From Acidimicrobiia bacterium (GTDB taxonomy: Bacteria; Actinomycetota; Acidimicrobiia; Acidimicrobiales; Acidimicrobilacustridaceae), in assembly GCA_020832495.1 (NCBI GenBank), contig JAFIEP010000023.1, forward strand, positions 1-64,000: a stretch of DNA of 64,000 bases, written 5' to 3'. Made by a program: the position numbers and the translations under genes. Shown one piece after another: positions 3,079 through 55,573 of the stretch. The number at the start of each line of letters is the position of its first letter. Positions within the stretch are counted from its first letter, which is position 1. The notes beneath the pieces are model-generated. The model ran no database searches and was not told the origin of the DNA. It saw nothing but the letters and a program-made list of their open reading frames with translations.

Positions 3079-3184
3079 GCTGCGACCTCCCGGCCACACG
3101 CCGTCCGGGAGGTGGTGATGGCTGCAAGCGTTCCCTGTCTCGTGTGCGCCATGGGGCCGGCGTACCCCAGGAAGTGGGGGATTG

Positions 3185-3337
3185 GTGTGTTGCGCTCTGT
3201 CGAACCCTGCCGAACACCGGCCAAAGGCGCGGGCCTTCTACCTGCACCTGATCCCCGAACTGCTCCCCAGTCCCACCGACGAACTCCACCTGGTCCTGCT
3301 GACGAAGGACGCCAAGCGGACCCTCCTCGAACGTTGA
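3185..3337 (+). CDS. Possible 50-residue ORF or gene fragment
   Basis: From GTG 3185 the frame encodes 50 residues including KARAFYLHLIPELLPSPTDE and LHLVLLTKDAKRTLLER. The composition looks protein-like, and a purine stretch (AGGAAGTGGGGG) stands just ahead of the start. No homologue recognised; it could be the end of a degraded gene. The rest of 3079-3382 contains nothing else I can support. Confidence 0.2.
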   Translation: MCCALSNPAEHRPKARAFYLHLIPELLPSPTDELHLVLLTKDAKRTLLER

Positions 3338-41816: not shown

Positions 41817-42239
41817 TCAGACGTCGAGCGGGTTGGCGACGTGCAATCCACGACGCTCCGCCGCAGCGCACAGCGCAGCGTCCGAGCTCGTCACCACGTT
41901 CGCCTCGATGGAGAGGGCTGCGGCCAGGTGCACCGCGTCATAGCCACGCAGCGCCTCGGATTCGGCCAGGTCCGCCGCCTCGGCGATCAAGGTGTCGGTG
42001 ACGGCGACGAAGGTGACCTCCTCGAGCAGGTCACCGAGTTCCGACGTGGCTGCCCGGAGCTCCCCAGCGGTGAGTCGGCCGCCGCGCTGGGCCGCGGCGA
42101 GCGCGGCTCTGGCCTCGACGACGGCGGTCGCCGCGCACGCCAGAACGTCAGCGGCGTTCCAGATGGCGTCGGCCGCGTCGGAGCCGTCCTCGGCGAGCAG
42201 GCGCTTGAGGAGCGTCGAGGTGTCGACGTAGGTGATCAA
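41817..42239 (-). CDS. vapC: VapC-family PIN-domain toxin
   Basis: 140 residues: D6 in ITYVDTSTLLKRLL, E in TAVVEARAALAAA, D in LRGYDAVHLAAALSI and SSDAAL near the end give the PIN acidic cluster. Start overlaps the antitoxin stop by four bases (ATGA). Complete. The GYDAVHLAAAL form is the common COG1848/VapC type. Confidence 0.88.
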   Translation of the reverse strand: MITYVDTSTLLKRLLAEDGSDAADAIWNAADVLACAATAVVEARAALAAAQRGGRLTAGELRAATSELGDLLEEVTFVAVTDTLIAEAADLAESEALRGYDAVHLAAALSIEANVVTSSDAALCAAAERRGLHVANPLDV

Positions 42240-42517
42240 CGGCGCTGTTCGGCGACGAGATCGCTGACCGACCCTCTGGGCGTGATGCGCTGCTTCGGGG
42301 GGCGACGGGTGACTCGCTTCGCGGGGCGCACGACGCCAGCGGCCACCAGCTCAGCGAGGCGGTCCGTGGAGTGGTCGAGCGCCGACAGTCGAGCCACCGG
42401 CTTGCCGCGGTCGGTGACGATGACCTCCTCGCCCGCTCGGACCCGCTCCAGGTAGCGGCTGAGATTGTTCTTGAGGTCTCGCACCCCGACTTCCACGCGA
42501 GGTGTAGCTACTGCCAT
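42236..42517 (-). CDS. Phd/YefM-family antitoxin
   Basis: 93 residues. EVGVRDLKNNLSRYLERVRA then GEEVIVTDRGKPVARL is a textbook Phd/YefM N-terminus; the basic tail (RPAKRVTRRPPKQRITPRG) would hold the VapC toxin. A -10 box precedes it, but unlike the pair at 3.4-4.0 kb I find no clean palindrome upstream. Confidence 0.88.
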   Translation of the reverse strand: MAVATPRVEVGVRDLKNNLSRYLERVRAGEEVIVTDRGKPVARLSALDHSTDRLAELVAAGVVRPAKRVTRRPPKQRITPRGSVSDLVAEQRR

Positions 42518-47108: not shown

Positions 47109-48884
47109 TCAGAAGGTCTCGGGAGGCACCGGCGGCAGGTGCAGCACCACGGTGAACGAGAGGAACCGAGCCATGGCCTGGCGGCTGACGGGTTCGGTGG
47201 GCCGGAACGTGCCGTCCTCGTAGCCCGAGGCGATCCCGTTGTCCACCAGCCAGGTGATTTCGGGGCAGAACCGGTGGTCGCTGGGCACGTCGGAGAACGG
47301 CCCCTGTGCCTCGGTGTCGCACTGCGCTGGGGCTGTGCCGTTCCACAGCCCCGAGGTGCGGGCCAGGAACGCGGCCGACGCCTGGCGGCTCACCGGCGCG
47401 GTCGGTCGGAACGTGCCATCGGCGTAGCCCACAGCGATGCCGTTGGCTGCCGACCAGGTGATCTCGGCGCAGAACACGTGATCGGCGGGCACGTCGGAGA
47501 AGGGCCCCTCGCCATCGCACTCCTCGGCAACGTCGCCGCCCCACAGCGCCGAAGTCCGGAACAGGAACGCCACCGCTGCCTGGCGGCTCACCGGAGCAGT
47601 CGGGCGGAAGGTGCCGTCGGCATACCCCGAGGCGATGCCGTTGGCCACCAGCCACGAAATATCGCCATTGAATGGATGGTCGAGGTCGACGTCGTCGAAG
47701 GTCGTCGGGCAGACCTGGCTCACCGGGGCGAAGCTCGGTGCGGCCACGGCATAGCCGCTCAGCGCGGCGCCGAGCACCGCTTGGCGCGAAGCGAACAGGT
47801 CGGCGGCGCCGCCCGAGAAGGGTGAGGCGAAGGCCCCGGGCGTGTCCGTGTCACAGCCGAGCTGCCAGTCGAGCAGCGACGTGAGCGGGTGGACGCCCTC
47901 GGCGATCTCCCACCGGCCACCACGTGGGTCTTCTCCGGCGGCCACGATGGCGCCGATCACCAGGGCCGTCGAGTTCGGGTCACCGGCTGGTTGGCCCGTC
48001 AGGTACGGGAAGCCCCCGTCGAGGGTCTGGGCCTCGACGAGGAAGTCGAGAGCGAGGGAGAGTTCGTAGGCCGGGGGGTCGAGCACCAGGCTGAGCGCTT
48101 GGGCAGCCAGGGCCGTCTGGTTGGTGTCGGGACCACTGAAGGTGTCGGGGTCGGGCAGCTGGCACTCGGGACCGGTGTCGGCCCGGTAGGCCTCCCAGCC
48201 ACCCACCGCGCCGGGTGCGCCGCTGCACTGCTGCTCGAGCAGCCAGTCGACCGCCGCCTCGGGCACCGTGGCGTCGACGGTGTGCAGGGCCATGATGGCC
48301 AGCGATTGGCGGAACGCCCCGTCGAAGGTGGGGGCGGCGGCGCCGTAGAGGCCTGCCTCGAACCCTCCGAAGGTGCTGCCCAGCAGGGCCACCAGGTCGA
48401 CGTCGCCGTCGGGACCGACGCCGGTCGGGTCGACTCCAGCGGCATTCAGCAGCAAGATTGCCAGGGCCAGCCGTGCGGGGCTGGCCGAGTCGTCGAGTGA
48501 ACCGGCCACCACGTCGGGGTTGGCTCGCACCCATTCGATGATCGCTGCGAACGTCGGCGCCGCCGTGCCGCTGGCCGCCAGGGACAGTCCGACGTCGAGC
48601 GTGGCGCCGACGTCGGGGGCCTCACCGGCGGGAACGTAGCCGTCGGGTCCGACCTGGGCAGCCAGCCACAGGGCGCCCGCCGCGGCGGCAGGTTGGGTGT
48701 CGACCGGCGCCGGCGGTTCCAGGCCGTCGACCGTGCCGGCGCCGACGCCGGCCAGCAGTGCCATGACCAACAGCGTGGCCGTTGCCACGCGACGATGGAC
48801 CCGTGCTCGGGGGGCGGCAGGCCGCACGCCTCGGCGTCTCGGAGTGGGCGACTGCCCCGGGGGCTGGGCCAGGTCGACGTGCAT
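47109..48884 (-). CDS. Secreted alpha-toroid protein with three SLH domains, B12-riboswitch controlled
   Basis: 591 residues. A long basic n-region and hydrophobic core (VATATLLVMALLAGVGAG) form a signal peptide. Residues about 60-380 are alpha-helical repeats of the terpenoid-cyclase/prenyltransferase toroid type, e.g. LVEAQTLDGGFPYLTGQ, NQTALAAQALSLVLD and NSTALVIGAIVAAGEDP; this is also the fold of the B12-binding N-terminal domain of intrinsic factor and transcobalamin. Cyclase DxDD motifs are absent. Three SLH repeats (about 395, 461, 529; FRPTAPVSRQA) tether it to the wall. The cobalamin riboswitch upstream implies a B12-related job, I suggest capture at the cell surface. ATG 48884 follows GGAAAGGA. 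Confidence 0.85.
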   Translation of the reverse strand: MHVDLAQPPGQSPTPRRRGVRPAAPRARVHRRVATATLLVMALLAGVGAGTVDGLEPPAPVDTQPAAAAGALWLAAQVGPDGYVPAGEAPDVGATLDVGLSLAASGTAAPTFAAIIEWVRANPDVVAGSLDDSASPARLALAILLLNAAGVDPTGVGPDGDVDLVALLGSTFGGFEAGLYGAAAPTFDGAFRQSLAIMALHTVDATVPEAAVDWLLEQQCSGAPGAVGGWEAYRADTGPECQLPDPDTFSGPDTNQTALAAQALSLVLDPPAYELSLALDFLVEAQTLDGGFPYLTGQPAGDPNSTALVIGAIVAAGEDPRGGRWEIAEGVHPLTSLLDWQLGCDTDTPGAFASPFSGGAADLFASRQAVLGAALSGYAVAAPSFAPVSQVCPTTFDDVDLDHPFNGDISWLVANGIASGYADGTFRPTAPVSRQAAVAFLFRTSALWGGDVAEECDGEGPFSDVPADHVFCAEITWSAANGIAVGYADGTFRPTAPVSRQASAAFLARTSGLWNGTAPAQCDTEAQGPFSDVPSDHRFCPEITWLVDNGIASGYEDGTFRPTEPVSRQAMARFLSFTVVLHLPPVPPETF

Positions 48885-48891
48885 GAGCGGA

Positions 48892-49118
48892 TCCTTTCCG
48901 GGAGGCGAAGCCCGGGACCGTCCGCTCCCCTGCCCTCTACGACCTGACGTCGTCCATGCAGCGGTGCAGTGCTGTCCACGGCTCAGCCCCGTTGTCCACG
49001 ACGGTGCGGTTGAGCGTTCCGTGTGCGGCAGGTGCTCCGGCTCATCGGGTCGGGCCCGACTCACGGTTGCGGGACAGCGTCGGAGTCTCACCGACTTCCC
49101 CCAGCACACACGATGTTC
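48892..49118 (-). promoter_or_regulatory. Cobalamin (adenosylcobalamin-type) riboswitch
   Basis: Minus-strand leader with the conserved B12 elements in order: GGGGGAAGTCGGTGAGACTC at about 49083-49102, CCCGCAACCGTGA (49061-49073) and the B12 box AGCCGGAGCACCTGCC (49027-49042). A closing hairpin CCCGGGCTTCGCCTCCCGG (48898-48916) abuts the ribosome-binding site GGAAAGGA (48892-48899), so control is probably at translation. Downstream gene: the toroid/SLH protein. Confidence 0.85.
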
Positions 49119-49304
49119 CGATTGCGCCGGTATCCAACCACACACCACCGAGGCGCGCAAGCAACGACCGCATGCTCGCTGCGCCCGAGACGGAGGTTCC
49201 GCGCCAACCTCCATTTCTCCTTGAGGTTGAGACTGGCCTCGACCTTCTCCTCAGGTGCAGCTGTGTCTCACGTGGAACGCTCCGACACCAGGCGACTGTC
49301 GGAG

Positions 49305-52434: not shown

Positions 52435-52464
52435 CCACACCACAACTGAGGCCCATCATCACCT

Positions 52465-52646
52465 GTGGGAGAGCATCGACGGCCCCGGTCGGCGATGCGC
52501 CGAAGGAGCAACCGCCCCGGAATCTCTCAGGCCCCCGTACCGCAGGTGTAGGCAACGCTGGAGAGCAGTCGGCAGCACAGCCGGCTCACCGAAGGGGAAA
52601 GCTGCCCCGGGTAGCGAATCTCTCAGGTCCACATGACAGCGTGGGG
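52465..52646 (+). promoter_or_regulatory. Tandem glycine riboswitch
   Basis: Two aptamers in series. The first opens GTGGGAGAGC, with CGCCGAAGGAGCAACC and GGAATCTCTCAGG; the second opens GCTGGAGAGC, with CACCGAAGGGGAAAGCTG and CGAATCTCTCAGG, and closes with GACAGCGTGGGG. These are the conserved blocks of the gcvT glycine element. Glycine binding should switch on gcvP, whose ATG lies 36 bases after the element. Confidence 0.95.
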
Positions 52647-52681
52647 TGCCCGATCCACGCGCCAGCCCGCCGGGAGCACCC

Positions 52682-55573
52682 ATGACCCTCGACCAGACCG
52701 AGCCGACCCTCGAGACGCTCGAGCACCACCACGAATTCGTCGAGCGCCACATCGGCCCCGACGCCGCCCAGACCCGGGCAATGCTCGAGGCCCTCGGGCT
52801 GGGATCGGTCGACGAACTGCTCGACGCCGTGGTCCCTGCCTCCATCCGCTGGTCCAAGCCGCTGGATCTGCCCACGGCGAGCACCGAGGCCGCCGCGCTG
52901 GCCCAGCTCGCCGAGTTGGCCGCTCGCAACGAGGTGCTGACCTCGCTCATCGGCACTGGGTACGCCAACACCGTGACCCCGGCGGTGATTGCCCGCAACG
53001 TGTTGGAGAACCCCGCCTGGTACACGGCCTACACCCCCTACCAGCCCGAGATCTCCCAGGGTCGCCTCGAGGCGCTACTCAACTTCCAGACCATGGTCAG
53101 CGACCTGTGCGGGTTGGACCTGGCCAACGCCTCCATGCTCGACGAGGCCACCGCGGCGGCCGAGGCCATGGCCATGTGCCGCCGGGCCAAGCCGTCGGCC
53201 GGCAACCGCTTCGTGGTCGACGCCGACTGCCACCCCCAGACCATCGCCGTGGTGCACACCCGGGCCAAGCCCATCGGCGTGGAGGTGGTGGTGGCCGACC
53301 TGGACCGCCCCCTCGACCTCGACGGGAGCTTCGGGCTGTTGGTGCAGCACCCCGGCTCGTCGGGCGAGTTGCGCGACCATCGTCCCCACATCGACGCTGT
53401 CCACGCGGCGGGCGGTCTGGCCGTGGTGGCTGCCGACCTGCTGGCCCTGACCGTCATTGCGTCGCCCGGCGAGTTGGGCGCCGACATGGCCGTCGGTAAC
53501 TCGCAACGGTTCGGGGTGCCGTTGGGCTTCGGTGGACCGCACGCCGGCTTCCTGGCCGTGCGCGACGAGCACAAGCGCTCGCTGCCGGGCCGCTTGGTCG
53601 GCGTGTCCCGAGACACCGAGGGGCGGGTGGCCTACCGACTCACCCTGCAAACCCGTGAGCAACACATCCGCCGCGAGCGGGCCACGTCGAACATCTGCAC
53701 CGCTCAGGTGCTCCTGGCCGTCATCGCCGGCATGTACGCCTGCTACCACGGCCCCGACGGTCTCGAGCGCATCGGACGTCGGGTGCACCGGCTGACGTGT
53801 GTGCTGGCCGAAGGACTCCGTCGGGGCGGCGCCGACGTCGTCACCCGCAACTTCTTCGACACCCTCACCGTGTCGGTGCCGGGCCACGGCGCCGCCGTGA
53901 TCGACGCTGCCCTCGAGCGCGGGTACAACCTGCGCCGCGTCGACCGTGACACCGTGGGGGTCACCCTCGACGAGACGTGCAGTCTCGAGACGGTGACCGA
54001 CCTGTTGGCCGCTTTCGACGCCGGTGCCGATCAGCCGCCGGCGGACCTGGCGGTGACCTCGTCGATTCCCGCCGAGTTGCGCCGGACCACCGAGTACCTG
54101 ACCCATCCGGTCTTCACCGCCCACCGCTCCGAGACCGAGATGCTGCGCTACCTCCGGCGGCTCGCCGACCGCGACATCGCCCTCGACCGGGCCATGATCC
54201 CGCTGGGCTCGTGCACCATGAAGCTGAACGCCACCAGTGAAATGCTGCCCATCACCTGGCCGGCCTTCGCCGACATCCATCCGTTCGCCCCCATCGAGCA
54301 GGCCGACGGCTACCTGACCATGATCCGCCAACTCGAGCAGTGGCTGGCCGAGATCACCGGCTACGACGCCGTCTCGGTGCAACCCAACGCCGGCAGCCAG
54401 GGCGAGTACGCCGGTCTCCTGGCCATCGCGGCGTACCACGCTGCTCGAGGCGAGACCGAGCGGGACGTCTGTCTCATCCCCGCCTCGGCCCACGGGACCA
54501 ATGCGGCGTCCGCAGCCATGGCCGGCATGCGGGTGGTGGTGGTGGCCTGCGACGACGACGGCAACGTGGACCTCGCCGACCTCGAGGCCAAGCTGGACGC
54601 TCACGGCGACACGTTGTCGTGCCTGATGGTCACCTACCCCTCCACCCACGGCGTGTTCGAGACCGCCATTGGCGACATCTGCGCCGCGGTGCATGACGCC
54701 GGCGGGCAGGTGTATCTCGACGGGGCCAACCTGAACGCGCTGGTGGGGGTGGCCAAGCCCGGCAAGTTCGGGGCTGACGTCAGCCACCTCAACCTGCACA
54801 AGACGTTCTGCATCCCCCACGGCGGCGGCGGGCCGGGTGTCGGGCCGGTGGCGGTGCGAGGCCATCTGGCGCCCTACCTGCCCACCAGCCCGCTGACCCC
54901 CGAGGCCGGCCCGGTGACCGGGGTCGGCGCGGTGTCGGCCGCCCCCTGGGGCTCGGCAGGCATTCTGCCCATCTCGTGGATGTACATCGCCATGATGGGG
55001 CGCGACGGCCTGTTGGCCGCCACCGCCTCGGCCCTGCTGGCCGCCAACTACGTGGCCCACCGCCTCCGGGACCACTACCCCATCCTCTACTCGGGTGCCG
55101 ACGGGTGGGTGGCCCACGAGTGCATCCTCGACATCCGCCCGCTGACCAAGGCAACGGGTGTCACCGTGGACGACGTGGCCAAGCGCCTCATCGACTACGG
55201 GTTCCACGCCCCGACGATGTCGTTCCCGGTGGCGGGCACGCTGATGGTGGAGCCCACCGAGTCGGAGTCGCTGGCCGAACTGGACCGCTTCTGCGACGCC
55301 ATGATCGCCATCCGTGGCGAGATCGACCGCGTGGGTTCTGGCGAGTGGCCGGCGGAGGACAACCCGCTGCGCAACGCTCCGCACACCGCTGAGGACGTCA
55401 CCGCTGACGACTGGGCCCGGCCCTACGGGCGTTCGCTGGCTGCCTACCCGGTGGAGGGCCTGCGCTCGAACAAGTACTGGCCCCCGGTGAGCCGCATCGA
55501 CGGCGCCTGGGGCGACCGCAACGTCGTGTGCGCCTGTCCGCCGCTCGAGGCGTTCACCGACCCGGAGGACTGA
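52682..55573 (+). CDS. gcvP: Glycine dehydrogenase (decarboxylating), P protein
   Basis: 963 residues, the full-length fused form. N-terminal half from [20 protein letters not shown]; the C-terminal half holds the PLP lysine in [17 protein letters not shown] and the glycine-rich loop before it. It decarboxylates glycine and loads the aminomethyl group on GcvH lipoate. Under glycine-riboswitch control; its 3' end overlaps the convergent gcvT by 20 bases. Confidence 0.96.

Follow-up and report, generated by a model that had tools for sequence, protein, structure and literature searches.

A 64,000-nucleotide stretch of DNA from an Acidimicrobiia bacterium (the window) carries, under a cobalamin riboswitch, a gene whose product joins an alpha/alpha toroid to three S-layer homology (SLH) domains. 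With a probability of about three in four, judging from sequence and structure modelling, this protein is a wall-anchored capture subunit for vitamin B12 that feeds an ECF importer. The apparent B12 auxotrophy of the host, the riboswitch, the carrier-type fold, and the presence of relatives in B12-transporter operons together make B12 capture at the cell surface the most likely function. Counting against this reading are the solitary locus; the lack of a beta domain; an altered motif; a fold closer to that of cyclases; and an SLH anchor that is a local feature.

The window gene, its leader and its protein

Comparison of the whole 64-kb window with Rfam (cmscan) gave three matches above threshold: two tandem glycine riboswitches and one cobalamin riboswitch (RF00174; full model, positions 1-189; 39.7 bits against a gathering threshold of 31.5; E = 1.5e-6 for the whole window). 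The Infernal result thus bears out the original prediction that a cobalamin riboswitch lies upstream of the toroid gene. The interval then assigned to it, 48892-49118, cuts off the 5' end of the aptamer and takes in leader sequence that is not aptamer. The tandem glycine riboswitch (52456-52648, (+)) precedes a gcvP-like gene (52646-55573), and five related loci (L013, L044, L050, L051, and L055) likewise have glycine riboswitches near the toroid gene.

The best coding start is the ATG at 48884, preceded by AAAGGA, and the gene ends at 47109. A 701-aa open reading frame was rejected as the gene: it is merely an open frame extending back through the riboswitch. From the aptamer (49157-49010, (-)) to the start of the 591-aa gene is 125 nt. 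Because the cobalamin riboswitch forms the mRNA leader of this gene, expression would be expected under B12 shortage, with B12 lowering it. The hairpin GAGCGGA...UCCGCUC, which overlaps part of the ribosome-binding site beside the AUG, might conceivably be a translational expression platform; its local stability is -24.3 kcal/mol, yet this is no better than for shuffled sequence (z = -0.34), and a longer leader stretch around it adopts another fold.

Table 1. Features of the toroid gene and its leader (window coordinates)
Feature	Position	Strand	Basis
Cobalamin (B12) riboswitch aptamer, complete	49010..49157	(-)	RF00174, again in genome-wide scan
Candidate translational expression platform, hairpin	48886..48927	(-)	local fold
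Ribosome-binding site AAAGGA	48892..48897	(-)	sequence
Gene for alpha/alpha-toroid protein, 591 aa, predicted to be secreted and SLH-anchored	47109..48884	(-)	translation, families, homologues
Basic N-terminus with a hydrophobic stretch, residues 1-50, RRVATATLLVMALLAGVGAGTV	48735..48884	(-)	by inspection
Alpha/alpha toroid, residues about 55-385	47730..48722	(-)	AlphaFold model, fold matches, conservation
Three SLH domains, residues about 393-580, putative wall anchor	47145..47708	(-)	PF00395

Residues 1-50 of the protein are an apparent Sec-type export signal. The SLH domains were recognized in three stretches (PF00395; E = 7.3e-36; 122.3 bits against a gathering threshold of 20.8). Together with the signal seen by inspection, they support the earlier call of a wall-anchored secreted protein, and the protein would be expected to reside in the wall. 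About ten further SLH proteins are encoded in the same genome (for example on contigs C53, C99, C97, C55, and C71), with 49-65% identity to the window SLH domains; SLH display is therefore a general device of this strain. No beta-grasp domain was found in the protein, which past the toroid contains only the SLH domains.

The Pfam search found no prenyltransferase match in the protein and no significant family in the toroid region. The NCBIfam model SCO2321_fam matches residues 176-384 with 174.1 bits, under its 300-bit curated cut-off. Conserved toroid motifs of the family are QQC (218-220), DTNQT (253-257), and DPNST (302-306), along with a second Cys at 241; one of the three motifs is altered, reading DTNQT where relatives have DTNST.

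AlphaFold, given residues 51-395 with 25 homologues, returned a helical alpha/alpha toroid (pLDDT 91.5; pTM 0.91). The claim of an alpha toroid therefore stands, with intrinsic factor and transcobalamin among the structural matches. In a Foldseek search of the PDB, squalene-hopene cyclases and drimenyl diphosphate synthases rank first (E = 1.8e-6); transcobalamin follows from rank 13 (4zrp; E = 7.3e-6), with intrinsic factor further down, at rank 28 (E = 1.5e-4). The VIA-align scores also put the cyclases first: Z is 25.8 for terpene cyclases, 21.5 for intrinsic factor (2pmv), and 20.8 for transcobalamin, so that by this measure the window toroid resembles terpene cyclases more closely than the animal B12 carriers. 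A toroid profile compared with PDB sequences likewise matched terpene cyclases and not transcobalamin. Intrinsic factor (2pmv) aligns with the window toroid over 241 residues at 3.0 A. The human carriers (intrinsic factor, transcobalamin, and haptocorrin) are co-linear with the domain and about 15% identical to it.

Alpha/alpha toroids are common and occur in other families too. Since cyclases score above carriers, the fold by itself cannot single out B12 carriers. The suggested counterpart of animal carriers holds for the toroid fold, which is common to both; against it, the beta domain is missing and cyclases are structurally closer.

Judged by inspection of the open reading frames, no ECF-like genes adjoin the window gene, which lies outside an ECF operon. 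Also by inspection, tandem PIN-domain-like and Phd/YefM-like reading frames at 41817-42517 (-) are likely a toxin-antitoxin pair.

Riboswitches and ECF genes among relatives

The 118 genomes of the order were searched with the toroid profile and with RF00174, and the coordinates were then compared; full-length and partial toroid matches were separated by eye, on profile coverage and the part covered, before distances were scripted. In 15 of 17 full-length toroid genes, RF00174 lies upstream in the same orientation, at a distance of 52-459 nt. Of the other two, one closes an ECF operon that a riboswitch leads (G010), and one has no detected riboswitch (G072). Partial, squalene-cyclase-like matches in the same genomes had a riboswitch within 1 kb upstream in none of 29 cases. 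Random expectation for a same-strand riboswitch within 1 kb upstream is, as a rough figure, 1.7e-4 per gene; the association of riboswitch and toroid exceeds chance.

These counts bear on the possibility that the window protein belongs, as an enzyme, to the terpene-cyclase/prenyltransferase superfamily and came under B12 control through accidental promoter capture. The top structural matches, squalene-hopene cyclases and drimenyl diphosphate synthase at Z about 25, are what this account would predict. However, the riboswitch is kept family-wide rather than captured once, and the partial cyclase-like matches in the same genomes lack it; relatives share operons with ECF and transcobalamin-type beta-grasp genes; and the protein carries an apparent secretion signal and an SLH anchor. 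Moreover, the DxDD motif of class II terpene cyclases is absent from all 591 residues. Terpene cyclase function was rejected on this absence and the genomic context, and the enzyme account as a whole is very improbable.

A scan of GTDB genome contigs yielded 77 related loci (L040-L116), nearly all from Actinomycetota and including Acidimicrobiia, Nanopelagicales, and Frankiales bins. Fifty-one related loci were scanned with Rfam: 36 have a cobalamin, AdoCbl, or AdoCbl-II riboswitch above cut-off, all upstream and on the same strand; in five of the other 15 no sequence upstream is available, and eight show a B12-box match in the equivalent position. ECF genes lie on the toroid strand in 53 of the 77 loci, downstream in 50 and upstream in 3. 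The toroid gene of most relatives comes first in an operon that also encodes a beta-grasp protein and an ECF transporter. Heading ECF-type B12 transporter operons as they do, these relatives make the toroid family part of the transporter regulon, and the original view of the gene as unlike the usual transporter targets is not supported.

None of the 77 related loci has an SLH match. This absence, set beside the frequency of SLH domains in the window genome, marks the SLH anchor as a local addition. It also tells against a structural role, in the S-layer or in adhesion, with expression that tracks B12 status by coincidence. Such a role would fit the three SLH domains and the many SLH proteins of the genome, but relatives under the same riboswitch do without SLH and mostly belong to B12 transporter operons, and the toroid is the conserved part; this explanation, too, has very little probability. 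The C-termini of several toroid relatives (L011, L040, L044, L050, L052, L055, and L065) bear at their very end a short P-x-(F/Y)-T-G motif, which may be an unusual anchoring or processing signal.

A solitary toroid gene, as in the window, also occurs in the nearest relatives, a synteny group of five loci (L011, L013, L044, L050, and L051). They have some neighbours in common with the window: the glycine riboswitches near four of them, and in L011 a gene that starts MPRRIEVELTSSRDDGTWTWRA there and MSNRIDVELTSSRDDGTWTWRA in the window.

Beta-grasp partners and circular permutation

The second operon gene in relatives encodes a secreted protein with the motifs LCxIDGYP...YWSYWxG...GDVEGWRF. No Pfam family recognizes these partner proteins. 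A model of one of them (L041) has a mean pLDDT of 69, with a higher core, and in Foldseek its top 15 rows are all transcobalamin and haptocorrin chains. VIA Z scores are 12.6 for haptocorrin, 12.4 for transcobalamin, and 12.2 for intrinsic factor, in keeping with a match of about 12 to the beta domain of the human carriers; the animal-carrier matches together span 11.4-12.6. Next comes 3u7z at 10.7, a small protein of Ruminococcus gnavus that putatively binds metal; unrelated, ubiquitin-like folds then score 7.1. In hhalign, the beta-grasp profile aligns over the whole domain with DUF4430 of other actinobacteria (probability 90.5; P = 1.3e-6). A profile of the partner proteins compared with PDB sequences gave photosystem matches only; these are at chance level and were discarded.

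In transcobalamin, B12 is held between a toroid and a beta-grasp domain of exactly these kinds (PMC1796856). In operons that pair toroid and transcobalamin-type beta-grasp genes, the two parts of an animal-type B12 carrier are therefore present, each as a protein of its own. The window gene supplies only the toroid (alpha) half.

Of the 77 loci, 46 have a toroid whose order is a circular permutation of the window type, and in 27 it is linear. In the permuted order, model positions about 140-360 come first, followed by about 30-145 (for example L114:4905-5942, compared with window 47730-48722). The beta protein changes in step: in the 48 loci where its order could be typed, by the author's own motif patterns, 35 are permuted/permuted, 13 linear/linear, and none mixed. 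One event per gene in one lineage could suffice for this pairing; it need not be more. The NCBIfam profile SCO2321 (NF053823) reflects the same rearrangement. Window residues 176-384 align with its positions 33-231 and the preceding part with 248-353, which makes SCO2321-type proteins circular permutants of the window type. This model matches the window toroid and a fused protein encoded on contig C54 of the same genome, yet below its curated cut-off, and the SCO2321 and SCO2322 models carry no function assignment.

The host regulon and the proposed capture of B12

Genome-wide, RF00174 has three matches above cut-off, on contigs C54, C57, and C58 (the window contig), and the SCO2321 matches fall on the same three contigs. 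The C54 riboswitch (3147-3279, (+)) is followed by the gene for a secreted protein in which toroid and beta-grasp are fused. Directly upstream of that riboswitch and gene lies a DnaB-like replicative helicase reading frame (L009:1003-3084, (+)) with, by inspection, an apparent intein (CLTADTPI...FVAGGVVVHN). The C57 riboswitch (2243-2357, (+)) is followed by genes for a membrane-anchored beta-grasp protein, ECF-T (CbiQ-type; E = 1.7e-8), a double ECF ATPase, and ECF-S. Back to back with it, on the opposite strand of C57, is a fourth cobalamin riboswitch, below threshold (L008:2011-2091, (-); 22.8 bits; E = 0.0023 in 1.5 kb). The two drive divergent genes; the one on the minus strand encodes a protein with beta-grasp, toroid, and SLH parts, interrupted by the contig end. 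All four detected cobalamin riboswitches, three above cut-off and one below, thus lead toroid or beta-grasp/ECF gene sets. BtuF/FecCD-type genes reside on C17, away from any detected cobalamin riboswitch.

Pfam DUF4430 (PF14478) has no match in this genome. Its beta domains were recognized through SCO2322_fam (NF040672), with weak matches below the curated cut-off for C54 and the C57 operon, and the transcobalamin-type fold through the structure model and profile comparison.

The host actinobacterium is apparently unable to make B12. No match to CbiC, which marks synthesis of the corrin ring, turned up in its assembly; as this is 97% complete, the absence is no proof. Five B12-binding domains are above cut-off. 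With no CbiC detected and several proteins with B12-binding domains, the host should depend on B12 uptake.

The same genome encodes two fused alpha/beta proteins (C54 and C57) and an ECF operon besides the solitary window toroid. The window protein might accordingly be a specialized paralogue that takes another ligand (for example cobinamide or other corrinoids), or that stores or holds B12 in the wall, while the ECF proteins of C57 do the importing. The position of the gene outside the ECF operon, its lack of a beta domain, and the equally solitary genes of the synteny group all agree with this alternative. Against it, the riboswitch type and the conserved motifs are the same as in ECF-linked members such as L041, and there is no sign of another ligand; a specialized paralogue is unlikely, although a good deal less so than an enzyme or a structural protein.

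On the preferred reading, a capture subunit for the importer, the riboswitch-led gene would be expressed at low B12 and yield the alpha half of a transcobalamin-like carrier. The toroid would be exported and fixed in the wall by its SLH domains. Its central cavity would take up B12, probably jointly with a beta-grasp partner acting in trans; candidates in the same regulon are the C57 operon protein and the fused proteins of C54 and C57. The B12 would then presumably be passed on to the riboswitch-controlled C57 ECF importer.

The general idea is not new, as Burroughs et al. predicted in 2007 a role in B12 scavenging for transcobalamin-like beta-grasp proteins of bacteria, which are often fused to toroids and encoded alongside CbiO/CbiQ, and proposed that animals acquired their B12 carriers from such bacteria (PMC1796856). 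The proteins described here share with theirs the apparent secretion, the toroid with a transcobalamin-type beta-grasp, the CbiO/CbiQ (ECF-type) operons, hosts without B12 synthesis, and a proposed role in B12 scavenging. Theirs are fusions, from low-GC Gram-positives, planctomycetes, and some archaea (PMC1796856), whereas those here are actinobacterial, missed by Pfam DUF4430, riboswitch-led, and divided between separate toroid and beta-grasp genes; the window form is an SLH-anchored toroid by itself. The words "SLH" and "riboswitch" are absent from the 2007 text. What is new, then, is the actinobacterial branch missed by DUF4430, with its two-gene architecture, its systematic association with riboswitches and its paired permutations, and the SLH-anchored one-domain toroid without a beta domain.

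Animal carriers are single soluble chains with both domains, in contrast to the window protein, which is alpha only, presumably anchored in the wall by its SLH domains, and predicted to bind B12. BtuG of Bacteroides (PMC6143338) is likewise a surface-exposed B12-capture protein beside a B12 importer, but it is an outer-membrane beta-propeller lipoprotein paired with BtuB, of unrelated fold. B12 import of the ECF type, as proposed here, is known from the ECF-CbrT transporters (PMC5997447). A 2017 genome study of acI bacteria describes cobalamin riboswitches preceding ECF modules in genomes without B12 synthesis (PMC5301498), an arrangement that resembles the riboswitch-led Nanopelagicales loci. 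In the excerpts of these two papers used here, no role is given to a secreted toroid or beta-grasp protein. In the literature outside subscription journals and preprints, bacterial intrinsic-factor-like proteins appear in one in-silico prediction (PMC1796856) and in no experimental study; the finding fits a frame of a kind so far only predicted in the literature searched.

A broader picture can be offered tentatively, at slightly less than even odds: a split bacterial transcobalamin, in which cobalamin is sandwiched between a separate secreted toroid and beta-grasp protein on the wall, coupled to ECF import. This device would be widespread in Actinomycetota, including B12-auxotrophic freshwater lineages, with both halves circularly permuted in the same lineages, and would be a relative of the source of the animal B12 carriers.

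The first B12 capture step in ECF-using actinobacteria is not described in the literature searched. Such bacteria include abundant freshwater lineages lacking the B12 pathway, according to the acI study (PMC5301498). The conserved, riboswitch-controlled secreted pair with both transcobalamin folds provides direct candidates for the capture role, and the finding bears on the 2007 proposal that animal B12 carriers are of bacterial origin.
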